Shown: piece by piece, positions 23,035 to 26,595 of the stretch
How positions within the stretch are numbered: position 1 is the first letter of the stretch
How the letters are laid out: each line of letters begins with the position of its first letter
Assembly (NCBI GenBank): GCA_017442785.1
Contig: JAFRZB010000023.1
Location: 1-61,796 of the forward strand
Reading direction: 5' to 3'
DNA from: Bacillota bacterium
Lineage (GTDB): Bacteria > Bacillota > Clostridia > Peptostreptococcales > Anaerovoracaceae
Length of the DNA stretch: 61,796 nucleotides
The notes under the pieces: generated by a model
The model's input: only the letters and a program-made list of their open reading frames with translations
Told to the model about the DNA's origin: nothing
Databases searched by the model: none
Made by a program: the position numbers and the translations under genes

Positions 23035-23535
23035 TCACTTCACAGCGACTCCGTGTTCCCTGAGATAGGCTTTAAGAGCTGTTGCCCCGCCCTCAAGGTA
23101 GGAGTCGTTTTTTAACAGTGCGCTGTAGCCGCCCATCATGAATATCACCAGGCAGCCGTTCATCTCCTTGCAGCCCGCTATGCTCTCCATGGGAAGAGAC
23201 GCGTGGAACTTTCCCGCCCTGTAGATCTCTACGGAGTTCTCTATCTCGTAGCGGTACACCGGAGACGCCTCCCCCGTCTCCTCCTGTATCCTCTTTGCGT
23301 CGTATTTGGTACCGACGAAGTACTGTACGAAGCGGAACAGGAACATCAGCAGGAAGATTATTGCTATCACAAGGAAGCGCGTAAGCCCGGAGCTTATGTA
23401 CAGCCCCGTGGATACCGCGCAAAGCACCAGCATCAGCAGGTGCAGAAGCTTGACTTTGTTGAAAAACAGGTAGTAGGCCTTCATTACCGTCCTTGTGTCG
23501 TCTATGTCGTATCTGTATTCGTTTATGAATCTCAT
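23035..23535 (-). CDS. YcxB-like membrane protein
   Basis: A 166-residue protein with two closely spaced membrane spans near residues 30-75 (LHLLMLVLCAVSTGLYIS and FLVIAIIFLLMFLFRFVQY) and a cytosolic beta-rich C-terminal part (YRYEIENSVEIYRAGKFHAS, then CLVIFMMGGYSALLKNDSYL). That layout is the YcxB-like family, whose function is unknown. The start is ATG 23535, which overlaps the stop of the preceding gene as ATGA; an ATG 24 bases further up lies inside that gene and has no ribosome site. It is the last gene of the EndoU-containing operon. Confidence 0.75.
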   Translation of the reverse strand: MRFINEYRYDIDDTRTVMKAYYLFFNKVKLLHLLMLVLCAVSTGLYISSGLTRFLVIAIIFLLMFLFRFVQYFVGTKYDAKRIQEETGEASPVYRYEIENSVEIYRAGKFHASLPMESIAGCKEMNGCLVIFMMGGYSALLKNDSYLEGGATALKAYLREHGVAVK

Positions 23536-24500
23536 TTCTCCGTACTCTCCGTGCAGCATTCGGCATTGTTGATCACTTCTATGTCGGCGGCCCCTACCGT
23601 AAGGTACTTGAGCCCGGACGGCATCGCAAGGAGCATATGTACCTCATAGCCGCTCTTTTTGCCGTAGAGCTCGCAGCAAAGGAACACGCAGTTGGAGTGC
23701 TGGCAGCAGTCGTGGTCGTGATGATGCTCATGGACGGATATCCTTATACCTTTGTCGCGCTCAAGGATCTTTCCGCCCTTAAAGACTATCTTTCTGAAGG
23801 GAGTCTCGCCCTCGGCCTCCATGCCCTCTATGTTGAACACCATCTCGATGTTTTTGCCGTTTTTCTTAAGAGAGATGACGTCGCAGTCGTGGAGATGCAT
23901 GCCTTCCCAGATATATTCCGGGATGTTCTGCTTTACAAGCGCGCGGTCCGCGTTGCGGTTTATGCGGTTGTATTCCTTCCTCGCGGCGCGCTCCTCTTCC
24001 CTGGCCTCCCTGAATATGGATTCCGGGACCATCTCAAGGGCAAGCAGCCTCTTATCGGCCTTTCCAAGGGCTCCGGACTCCGGCCAGCGCTTAAGATCGG
24101 CCAGACGCTCCTCGTAGATGTCGCAAAACATCTGCCTGTAGTCCTCCTCGTCGAAGGGCACCCTGGCGTTGAACTCCTCCAGCTCGGCATCCTGCTCCGC
24201 CTGAATGAAGGCCCTCACCTCTTCCCTGTCCTTAGGCATCCTGGTCTTTCCGGTGGCCTCGTCCGCGAGGACCCAGTCAGAAGGATCGAACTCCTCCCCC
24301 TCCAGAACGTCCATAAGGTAGCTGAGATCGGGAGGCGTATCGTATGCCTTCTTCTCCGCTCTGAGCTCCTTCTTAAACTTCTTCTCGAAGAGCTTATCTA
24401 TGTCCTTCTTGGTGTATTTACCGTCAGGCACCTTTGCAAGGCCGGTCGTGATGTCCGTCTTCTGCATAAGCGCGTACCATTCTTTAGTATAGTATCTCAT
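23532..24500 (-). CDS. DUF4085-like protein
   Basis: A 322-residue soluble protein that begins MRYYTKEWYALMQKTDITTG, an opening I associate with the DUF4085 family. The middle is strongly charged and helical (many Glu, Arg and Lys). A His/Cys cluster HEHHHDHDCCQHSNC near residue 252 and CVFLCCELYG just after it suggest metal binding. No catalytic motif is recognised. GGAGGAG lies directly before the start. It stands between the small unknown gene behind EndoU and the YcxB-like gene, all on one transcript. Confidence 0.65.
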   Translation of the reverse strand: MRYYTKEWYALMQKTDITTGLAKVPDGKYTKKDIDKLFEKKFKKELRAEKKAYDTPPDLSYLMDVLEGEEFDPSDWVLADEATGKTRMPKDREEVRAFIQAEQDAELEEFNARVPFDEEDYRQMFCDIYEERLADLKRWPESGALGKADKRLLALEMVPESIFREAREEERAARKEYNRINRNADRALVKQNIPEYIWEGMHLHDCDVISLKKNGKNIEMVFNIEGMEAEGETPFRKIVFKGGKILERDKGIRISVHEHHHDHDCCQHSNCVFLCCELYGKKSGYEVHMLLAMPSGLKYLTVGAADIEVINNAECCTESTEK

Positions 24501-24512
24501 TTCTCCTCCGTG

Positions 24513-24947
24513 CTATTCGTCGTTTCCGACTATAAACAATACCGCAAGCTCCTTATATACCGCAATAAACAGATCCTCCACAAAGTAGAACGGTCCTCCG
24601 CCTCTGGAAAAGCCGCTGTAATTGTCGCGCAGCTCCCCGTCATCCTTTATGGTATAGAGCGCTTCCGGCTTTCCTATTACGAAGCCCAGGCGCCTTCCAA
24701 GGTTCCAGGCGTTCTCGATATCCCATCCGAGCTCAAGCTTAAGATAGTCCGAAAGGCTCAGCGCGGACTTCTCCAGCACTATGTCTTCCTCGCTGCATTT
24801 GAGCTCCTTTGCCAGATCCTTCTCCAGGCCGTCCTTTTTGAACACCCTTGTCGACATGGAGCTCGGGCTCCTGAAGGCGTTGTCGGATATGGCCTCCGTA
24901 ATGCCGCGGACGAATCCCGAATAATATGCGAGCTGTGTTCTGGTCAT
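24513..24947 (-). CDS. Small protein of unknown family, candidate EndoU immunity protein
   Basis: A 144-residue soluble, acidic protein without membrane spans or known motifs. Its middle (LSLSDYLKLELGWDIENAWN) and end (FYFVEDLFIAVYKELAVLFI) look like a compact alpha/beta fold. AGGGGA precedes the start, which comes nine bases after the EndoU stop codon. A toxin gene directly followed by a small acidic soluble gene is the usual arrangement of toxin and immunity pairs; I infer the role from position only. Confidence 0.55.
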   Translation of the reverse strand: MTRTQLAYYSGFVRGITEAISDNAFRSPSSMSTRVFKKDGLEKDLAKELKCSEEDIVLEKSALSLSDYLKLELGWDIENAWNLGRRLGFVIGKPEALYTIKDDGELRDNYSGFSRGGGPFYFVEDLFIAVYKELAVLFIVGNDE

Positions 24948-24956
24948 TTCGTTCCC

Positions 24957-25619
24957 CTACTTCTTTGAATAGATCGGATAGGCCGTTACCACCCGGTCCT
25001 TGCTGTCCAGATACATGTTTATCTCAATGCCGTTGTAATAGCCTATGTAGGTGTCCCCCTTGTGACGGTCGTTCTTAAGAGCGTCTTTTCTGGCGGCGAT
25101 TATAGCGTCCACCACCTGCTGGGGAGTCCAGTCGTCCGGGTAGAAGGTGCTGTAATGGTCCTTGGCGTGTCCGTCCACCTCCACGTTTGCCGTGTAGCAG
25201 CCGTTCTTATCCGGCTTGGACCTGGTGCCCTCCACTATGCTTCCCGGAGAGTTCTTTATCATGTCGTAGTGGTATCCGGATCCCTTGCCGCTGGAATTGA
25301 CCGTCCCGAGGAATATGTGCTCCAGGGCGGACTTGTTGAAGACCTCCGTGCCTGTAAGCTCCCTGAGTATGTCCGCGCTGTAGTACACGGGCCCCTGCGG
25401 CTGAGGCTCCGGCTCGGGCTCCGGCTCCGGCGTTACGTTATTGGTATTCCCGCCGGGCTCGGGCACGGTGTTGCCGCCCGGCTCAACAGTGTTCGACGTG
25501 TTTGTCGGATCCGCGGGAGCTTCCTCTCCGCCCGGGCTTAAAAAGTAAACGAGCGCAGCGGCTATGATGATTATTATGAGTATCCACGAAAGGATCTTTT
25601 TGAGGTCCGGCTTTTTCAT
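24957..25619 (-). CDS. Membrane-anchored EndoU-type nuclease (putative toxin)
   Basis: A 220-residue protein in three parts. Residues 8-27 form one membrane span (ILSWILIIIIIAAALVYFL). Residues 30-78 are a Pro/Gly/Glu linker with repeated PGGNT and EPEPEP. Residues 80-220 are an EndoU-like domain: H101 in ALEHIFLGT, H117 in GSGYHYDMI, a HYSTFYPDDWTPQQVVDAI block, and the terminal T212-x-Y214 in VVTAYPIY. EndoU enzymes cut RNA near U using two histidines and a lysine; K135 or K153 could supply the latter. The topology places the domain outside the membrane. The ribosome site is weak. It follows the MraY-like gene by seven bases. Confidence 0.75.
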   Translation of the reverse strand: MKKPDLKKILSWILIIIIIAAALVYFLSPGGEEAPADPTNTSNTVEPGGNTVPEPGGNTNNVTPEPEPEPEPQPQGPVYYSADILRELTGTEVFNKSALEHIFLGTVNSSGKGSGYHYDMIKNSPGSIVEGTRSKPDKNGCYTANVEVDGHAKDHYSTFYPDDWTPQQVVDAIIAARKDALKNDRHKGDTYIGYYNGIEINMYLDSKDRVVTAYPIYSKK

Positions 25620-25626
25620 GTCTGTG

Positions 25627-26595
25627 TTATCTCGCGGCGATCATAAGATCGATGATGACTATCAGGGATACTATCAGCTGCACAAGGTTGAAGATGTACC
25701 TCACCTGGGCGTTGGACGCGCCCTTGTTCTTCCTGAGGTGGTCGTGCAGCGGGGTCCTGAGCTTTGCCATGAAGTTCTTTGTCTTAAGCACTCTCAGGAC
25801 AGTAAGCTTTACCAGCCCCAGCAGTCCGTCCAGAAGTATCACTATGCATAGCGGTATCGCAAGCAGAGCGTTGCCCATCCTTAAGAAAAGGATGCCCGCA
25901 AACAGTCCCAGCGGCCTGGATCCGGCGTCGCCCATCAGCACGGTGCTCGGTTCCGTGTTCAGGAGCAGGTATCCCAGCAGCACAGCCGTCATTACCGCGG
26001 CAGGCCCGAGGACCTTTCCCTGAGTTCCGAGAAGGAACGCGCATATGACGGCAGCCGCCATGGAATTGATCGAGAGCCCGGACAGAAGCCCGTCTATGCC
26101 GTCGGTGCAGTTGAAGGCGTTTATCATGAGCCAGAGGAAGAACGCGGCAAGAACTACATAGAGAGGCTTTGAAACTTCCACGACGCTGCCCGCGAACCTC
26201 AGGCACACGGCCTCCGGCTCGAATAAAACTATGACAGCCGCGGCAAGCAGGCACTCCACGAGGTCCGCTATGCCCTTCTTAAGCTCGCTCCAGGGAGTCT
26301 CGGAGCGGTCGTCCAGGTAGCCTGTGAGCATGGCCAGAATGAGTATCACGCCGAAGCATATGTCCGGCACGGCAAAACGGCTCGCGGCAATGCCCAGCAC
26401 CGCGAATATCGGCATCATCACCACTCCGGCGCCCCTTATCTTGCCTTTGGATTTCTCTCCTGCGACGGCGAATTCCCTGCCGTGGTCCCTCGGCAGCTTA
26501 GCACCCAATACCTTTATCATAAGCGGCGTGAGTATAAAAGCCGCTATGCATACCGCGGAAAGAAGACCTATATCGAACAGTGAAGCTTCGTTCAT
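25627..26595 (-). CDS. MraY/WecA-family phospho-sugar transferase
   Basis: A 322-residue polytopic membrane enzyme (about ten spans) of the polyprenyl-phosphate N-acetylhexosamine-1-phosphate transferase family. Catalytic blocks: GYLDDRSET (two aspartates), INAFNCTDGIDGL, STVLMGDAGSRPLG, and a loop TPLHDHLRKNKG where MraY normally has PIHHHFE. The blocks fit lipid I synthesis or a related undecaprenyl-linked sugar transfer. The gene stands outside any murein cluster and leads the EndoU operon, with GGAGGT before its start. It may be the only MraY or a paralogue with altered specificity. Confidence 0.82.
   Translation of the reverse strand: MNEASLFDIGLLSAVCIAAFILTPLMIKVLGAKLPRDHGREFAVAGEKSKGKIRGAGVVMMPIFAVLGIAASRFAVPDICFGVILILAMLTGYLDDRSETPWSELKKGIADLVECLLAAAVIVLFEPEAVCLRFAGSVVEVSKPLYVVLAAFFLWLMINAFNCTDGIDGLLSGLSINSMAAAVICAFLLGTQGKVLGPAAVMTAVLLGYLLLNTEPSTVLMGDAGSRPLGLFAGILFLRMGNALLAIPLCIVILLDGLLGLVKLTVLRVLKTKNFMAKLRTPLHDHLRKNKGASNAQVRYIFNLVQLIVSLIVIIDLMIAAR

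Follow-up and report, generated by a model that had tools for sequence, protein, structure and literature searches.

The BECR-fold RNase barnase, which is small and exported, is paired with the cytosolic inhibitor barstar, which guards against unexported barnase. Among EndoU nucleases, an experimentally shown toxin-immunity pair is MafB(MGI-1 NEM8013)-MafI, in which MafB is a secreted EndoU RNase and the immunity gene directly downstream abolishes MafB toxicity and blocks the RNase activity, likely by direct interaction (PMC4287609, in the part of the paper available to us). The YxiD-YxxD pair of B. subtilis 6633 also joins a BECR-fold RNase to a small immunity protein, the acidic region of which blocks the active site (excerpts of PMC12700104). 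In Priestia and Listeria innocua, EndoU domains related to the one described here form the tips of LXG (T7SS) toxins, again with a small gene directly downstream. The window, i.e., the whole stretch of DNA that was analysed (61,796 nucleotides), likewise holds an EndoU gene with a small gene downstream, which an earlier note had proposed as a candidate toxin-immunity pair.

The nuclease and its gene cluster

The cluster in the window consists of five genes:

25627..26595, minus strand: GT4 phospho-sugar transferase, MraY/WecA-like, with which the cluster opens (PF00953, E-value 3.3e-25)
24957..25619, minus strand: EndoU-family RNase, stand-alone and signal-anchored, 220 amino acids (PF14436 match and domain alignments)
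24513..24947, minus strand: S, a small, acidic, cytosolic-looking candidate immunity or inhibitor protein of 144 amino acids and of no family (co-occurrence with EndoU; starts 9 nt downstream of the EndoU stop)
23532..24500, minus strand: DUF4085-like protein, optional third gene (PF13315, E-value 3.7e-4, below the cut-off; synteny)
23035..23559, minus strand: small membrane protein outside any family, with which the cluster ends (no Pfam match; orthologues)

The EndoU ORF runs from an ATG start to a TAG stop. In the Pfam search PF14436 matched its product with an E-value of 9.8e-22 and 78.1 bits (cut-off 25.3), which confirms the EndoU-like domain of the earlier note, and the gene can be assigned to this family with confidence. 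The protein begins with a hydrophobic anchor, MKKPDLKKILSWILIIIIIAAALVYFL, and is laid out as a TM anchor (residues 8-27 approximately), a Pro/Gly/Glu-rich linker (about 28-76) and the EndoU domain (about 80-216; 97-216 by Pfam), so the signal-anchor and the Pro/Gly linker noticed previously were both found. The lipobox Cys is missing after the signal helix, and Pfam detected no N-terminal trafficking domain of the LXG, WXG, RHS or filamentous type, the protein being made up of anchor, linker and EndoU only.

Conservation of the active site was assessed in an alignment of the window domain with 63 relatives. H101 and H117 are kept in all 64 domains, a count that is partly forced because the scan patterns used to find the relatives include both His; the two residues are also present in five toxin EndoUs selected independently of these patterns. 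K153 and S157 are likewise kept in 64 of 64 domains, and T212 in 61. The spacing between H101 and H117, 16 residues, equals that between H162 and H178 in 2c1w, for which the section of PMC3482391 used here gives H162/T278 and H178/S229 as the catalytic set, and the conserved residues of the window appear to fit this set. The earlier note had pointed to two histidines and a terminal T-x-Y. A conserved histidine pair does exist, but the His of the DHYSTFYP motif is not part of it and was rejected as a catalytic residue, being absent in four of nine aligned EndoUs; the Tyr of T-x-Y is replaced by Phe in some relatives. As judged from these features, the window EndoU is predicted with little doubt to have RNase activity.

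Two PHROGs of unknown function gave matches to the EndoU domain close to their C-termini. A viral origin of S and EndoU was rejected, as the viral contigs contained no relatives of either and the phage records none of EndoU. Matches of EndoU, S and the partner family P1 (see below) to PDB profiles were linker-type or short, with E-values above 0.05, and were discarded, leaving S with no credible match there.

GT4 ends 7 nt before EndoU and adjoins it in the loci of the genus, except in G155, where the cluster is split over contig ends and a gene of 250 amino acids lies between the two. The kept gene order is GT4, EndoU, S, a variable third gene or none, and the membrane protein. At the variable place the DUF4085-like gene is present in four genus loci and absent in two, and an unrelated gene of 287-290 amino acids stands there instead in two. 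Orthologues of the membrane protein, 45-67% identical, are found at the locus in all seven other EndoU-bearing genomes of the genus (in G155 on a separate contig). The neighbourhood comparison thus agrees with the earlier note that the nuclease shares its cluster with a cell-wall lipid transferase. In the DUF4085-like gene of the window (23532-24500) and of L031, L032 and L033, a His/Cys/Asp-rich stretch was observed that is longer in the orthologues and suggests metal binding.

EndoU occurs in 8 of the 11 genomes of the genus, and S occurs in those same eight. The three genomes without EndoU are 61-79% complete, and no close GT4 was found in them (two of the three gave matches of 26-28%), so the whole locus is either missing or unassembled there. 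The window genome assembly (1.73 Mb in 50 contigs) contains one EndoU. The gene is single-copy and the locus syntenic across the genus, where no hypervariable locus, cassettes or immunity arrays were seen.

Small genes behind stand-alone EndoU domains

Scanning genome contigs with the EndoU alignment identified 63 short EndoU loci of the window subfamily. Thus, the short, anchored, stand-alone form described in the earlier note is real, and it is not unique to the window. By their titles the loci belong to Ruminococcus, Selenomonas, Schwartzia, Veillonellaceae, Erysipelotrichaceae, Lachnospiraceae, Oscillospiraceae and Clostridia, and on reading the titles 48 of them carry a ruminant name or the label RUG, which we take to mean a rumen genome. 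The relatives measure 194-347 amino acids from stop to stop. An automatic pattern classified 47 as lipoproteins, 13 as TM-anchored and three as undecided; visual inspection added a lipobox for L058, L062 and L080 and showed the EndoUs of L088 and L098 to be truncated at their N-terminal end. The seven genus loci scanned are all TM-anchored.

Other EndoU arrangements were observed as well. In other genera of the window family, L035 (5648-7042) and L036 (5160-6673) hold a second type of EndoU pair, with an EndoU of 162-164 amino acids and a partner of 106-120 amino acids that neither the P1 nor the S profile matches; the L035 pair adjoins a DUF4417 gene. At L041 (172-16211, G123), a protein of 3118 amino acids has an EndoU match that does not reach the Pfam cut-off; behind it stand several small genes, similar to one another and in tandem, which resemble an immunity array.

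To find the partners, all six frames of the 1500 nt downstream of every EndoU were scanned with two profiles, one for S and one for a second family, here called P1. A P1 gene was found behind 55 of the 63 EndoUs, S behind six (all of the window clade) and neither behind two; since the profiles were built from many of these very partner genes, it is the position and not the score that counts as evidence. The two partnerless loci are L049, with 141 nt of sequence behind EndoU, and L104, where a gene of 488 amino acids is found instead. The partner starts between -17 and +10 nt from the EndoU stop in 59 of the 62 assessable loci, the exceptions being L048 (+40), L075 (+674) and L104. The pairing far exceeds its background: among 349 further pairs of same-strand neighbours that a crude ORF caller delimited in these loci, 16 were equally tight and small. 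S itself lies 8-40 nt behind EndoU in the six assessable genus loci. In L075 (6001-7600), a gene of 203 amino acids, Fic-like by eye, stands between EndoU and P1.

P1 has no clear place in the family databases. For 49 of the 55 genes, Pfam returned two single-member matches to unrelated families (0.0011 and 0.0061), and none of the six members tried against NCBIfam was above the cut-off (weak matches, L100 0.046 and L103 0.11). The P1 profile, made from 49 of the 63 loci only, was compared with 12 sequences and matched seven. It recognized the genes behind the toxin EndoUs of L119 (1.3e-21) and L120 (3.5e-19) and those downstream of LXG toxins in Priestia (9.4e-14 and 1.2e-11) and Listeria innocua (1.3e-9); three partners of other EndoU subfamilies and two further Listeria ORFs gave no match. 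A tblastn search of plasmids with the window EndoU returned seven records, all annotated as T7SS effector LXG polymorphic toxin, with EndoUs 36.5-41.3% identical to the window protein. In the three records that were opened, a P1-matching gene of 112-123 amino acids begins -1 to 24 nt after the LXG toxin. When plasmids were searched with the L120 partner, P1 kin appeared in seven Priestia records. Six of these are the Priestia records already returned by the tblastn search, with P1 at the LXG toxin, and in one P1 stands alone, this orphan being on a plasmid outside the seven records with an EndoU match.

Within the window class, P1 matches were obtained in 5 of 291 genomes. In L120 (G514), P1 lies behind a protein of 878 amino acids with an EndoU C-terminus, two genes from an FHA gene, and in L119 (G651) behind an EndoU cassette whose linker is also present in a neighbouring protein. 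G702 carries two orphan P1 copies near PT-HINT toxin genes (PT-HINT was tested in L121 only), and PF14436 had no match in this genome. The matches in G586 and G749 were weak, in frames of 442-444 amino acids, and were dropped. Among 150 genomes of the family of G768, P1 was found in G768 alone. The occurrence of P1 behind LXG and other toxin-like EndoUs, together with the orphan copies, indicates by context that P1 is probably an immunity family. Two side observations concern the same genes. The G702 loci L121 and L122 show repeated toxin-like stretches, cassette-like ends, transposase-like genes and duplicated small genes, and many Ruminococcus P1 proteins (L053, L056, L063, L065, L085, L091 and others) end in His/Asp tails such as HHDHDHHHHH, which suggest metal binding beside an EndoU.

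S bears a C-terminal motif, SGFSxGxGPFY..ED.F....LF..GNDE, and a net charge of -6. It found no match in Pfam, NCBIfam, PHROGs or PADLOC, so the small acidic gene of no known family, nine bases after the nuclease, is just as the earlier note had described it. Compared by hhalign, S and P1 gave probabilities of 0.1% and 0.3%, and S was rejected as a P1 relative for want of profile similarity. For the window locus, P1 had no match in G000, nor in the genome of L044. Because the position behind EndoU is filled in 61 of the 63 relatives and P1 sits behind toxin EndoUs, S is very probably a dedicated partner of the nuclease, and the pairing suggested from the window alone thereby gains weight. In the window (24948-24959), EndoU and S share one reading frame and are parted by one stop and three codons; they are likewise in-frame in four relatives (L044-L047), with the frame open from stop to start.

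Outside the genus, the S profile, built from seven sequences only, gave one chance-like match in 296 genomes of the family, none in 393 genomes of the order and, beyond the window's own genome, 16 weak partial matches in 291 genomes of the class. A widened profile gave three weak matches in 247 family genomes, taken as chance. The match in G120 was rejected as a short stretch within a protein of 1889 amino acids, and the 16 class matches (E-values 5.6e-4 to 0.094) because all were partial and 15 of them lay in frames of at least 359 amino acids. No S was found in plasmids. Within the genus, G113 has a divergent second copy (L151, 4838-5269), with no EndoU on its 7.3-kb contig. This paralogue adjoins an ADP-ribosylglycohydrolase and a macro-domain gene (L151, 4838-7181). 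The region is possibly an immunity-like cluster, since an ADP-ribosylglycohydrolase immunity protein is listed in the part of PMC3482391 consulted.

Divergence and history of the pairs

In a tree built from 69 EndoU domains, the nucleases linked to S group in a single clade (support 100/98) among stand-alone forms linked to P1, and the five toxin EndoUs branch separately; the tree is midpoint-rooted, with bootstrap values that are not fully settled, some long toxin branches and two compositionally deviant toxin rows. As P1 is found on both sides of the S clade, the simplest history is one in which P1 gave way to S once, and we infer that S replaced a P1 immunity gene in an ancestor of the window clade.

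The partner diverges faster than the nuclease. Mean identity is 36.6% for P1 and 69.3% for its EndoU, P1 being lower in 1174 of 1176 (non-independent) pairs, and 52.3% for S and 72.4% for its EndoU, S being lower in 19 of 21 (again non-independent) pairs. Among the seven genus sequences, pairwise identities go down to 31.6% (S) and 55.9% (EndoU domain). Four genus pairs gave dN/dS values of 0.10-0.12 (EndoU domain) and 0.13-0.20 (S), with dS of S near saturation (about 2) in three of the four, and both genes look to be under purifying selection in the genus. For the P1-linked pairs the median dN/dS was 0.15 for EndoU and 0.22 for the partner, which was higher in 65 of 80 pairs; these values are indicative only, as 80 of 1176 pairs passed the dS limits and distant, site-saturated pairs are included.

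Possible roles and comparison with known systems

The arguments for and against are about evenly matched for our preferred explanation, namely that EndoU and S are a minimal surface-tethered toxin-immunity pair, descended from polymorphic toxins and provided with a substituted immunity gene. EndoU would be exported by Sec and kept tethered by its N-terminal helix, with the flexible Pro/Gly linker presenting the C-terminal nuclease outside the membrane. Cytosolic S would bind the nuclease and spare the cell's own RNA from EndoU that was not exported or that comes from a sister cell, and the nuclease might act on neighbours by contact or after proteolytic release. This explanation is based on the position of S, on the co-occurrence of EndoU and S and on the toxin kinship of the EndoU-P1 pair, as kin of the window EndoU are part of toxin-like proteins, LXG and others, that have P1 directly downstream. 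In the genomes searched, S was never seen beside a polymorphic toxin; as read from its position, S is probably an inhibitor of EndoU. For the use of EndoU against other bacteria the chances seem roughly equal either way. Against a weapon speak the lack of a visible delivery module (a toxin that is tethered must somehow get inside its targets), the single-copy, syntenic and stable locus, unlike hypervariable toxin islands, and the strong conservation of the EndoU domain with no sign of diversification.

The stable single-copy locus and the missing delivery module make a domesticated surface RNase with its inhibitor the main rival. In such a housekeeping pair, the tethered EndoU would digest extracellular RNA, either as a gut nutrient or near the envelope, and S would serve as a cytosolic inhibitor against unexported enzyme. 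The synteny of the locus, the purifying selection on a strongly conserved nuclease, the ruminant or RUG titles of 48 of the 63 related loci and the 47 predicted lipoproteins among them, a usual form of a surface enzyme, would all suit this role. We nevertheless consider it rather unlikely, because the nearest kin found outside the set form the tips of toxin-like proteins, LXG and others, that also have P1 as partner, orphan P1 genes exist, immunity genes under conflict would account more easily for a replaced partner, and no nucleotide-uptake gene is found among the five genes of the window cluster. It is more improbable still that S is an unrelated member of the operon with an envelope or regulatory role, P1 having been lost in the window clade owing to efficient export or weak activity of its EndoU. 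S does occupy the exact place of P1, whereas the third gene is variable or absent; of the 11 genus genomes, the 8 that have S are those that have EndoU, and a partnerless EndoU was met in 1 of 62 loci. These points outweigh for us that S is unlike P1 by profile and was never found beside another toxin, that the G113 paralogue stands without EndoU beside the ADP-ribosylglycohydrolase and macro-domain gene, that the genus loci have all retained GT4 and the membrane protein too, and that the EndoU of L104 does without any partner.

In a wider form the toxin-immunity reading is more tentative. Ruminant-gut Bacillota may carry EndoU warheads that were cut from LXG-type toxins, lack a delivery module and are tethered to the surface, either as lipoproteins or through one helix, and in the window genus P1 may have been swapped for the unrelated S, so that two independent families would neutralise one nuclease subfamily. 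Short surface proteins of ruminant-gut bacteria are hereby tied to the world of polymorphic toxins, and two unnamed candidate immunity families, P1 and S, are offered. The locus also provides a natural case in which an immunity gene seemingly gave way to an unrelated one directed at the same nuclease. The question raised is whether a surface toxin can work without a delivery module or whether toxin cassettes are becoming domesticated RNases.

No description of the stand-alone surface EndoU, of P1 or of S was found in the literature among the matches listed, which covered few subscription papers. The described systems differ from the window pair in several respects. The LXG toxins with an EndoU tip are proteins of 474-621 amino acids with an LXG domain, T7SS export and a P1 partner, whereas the window EndoU has 220 amino acids, no LXG domain, a Sec anchor and S. 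Barnase belongs to another RNase family; the window EndoU is membrane-tethered, and S has no Pfam match at all. YxiD is an LXG protein of the Ntox50 family and YxxD an Sm-like immunity protein (PMC12700104, same excerpts). MafB has a MafB-N domain, according to the part of PMC3482391 at hand, and is encoded in variable islands, whereas the window EndoU lacks MafB-N and lies in a stable locus. EndoU toxin-immunity as a kind is thus already known, and what is new here is the surface-tethered minimal form and the proposed substitution of the immunity gene.
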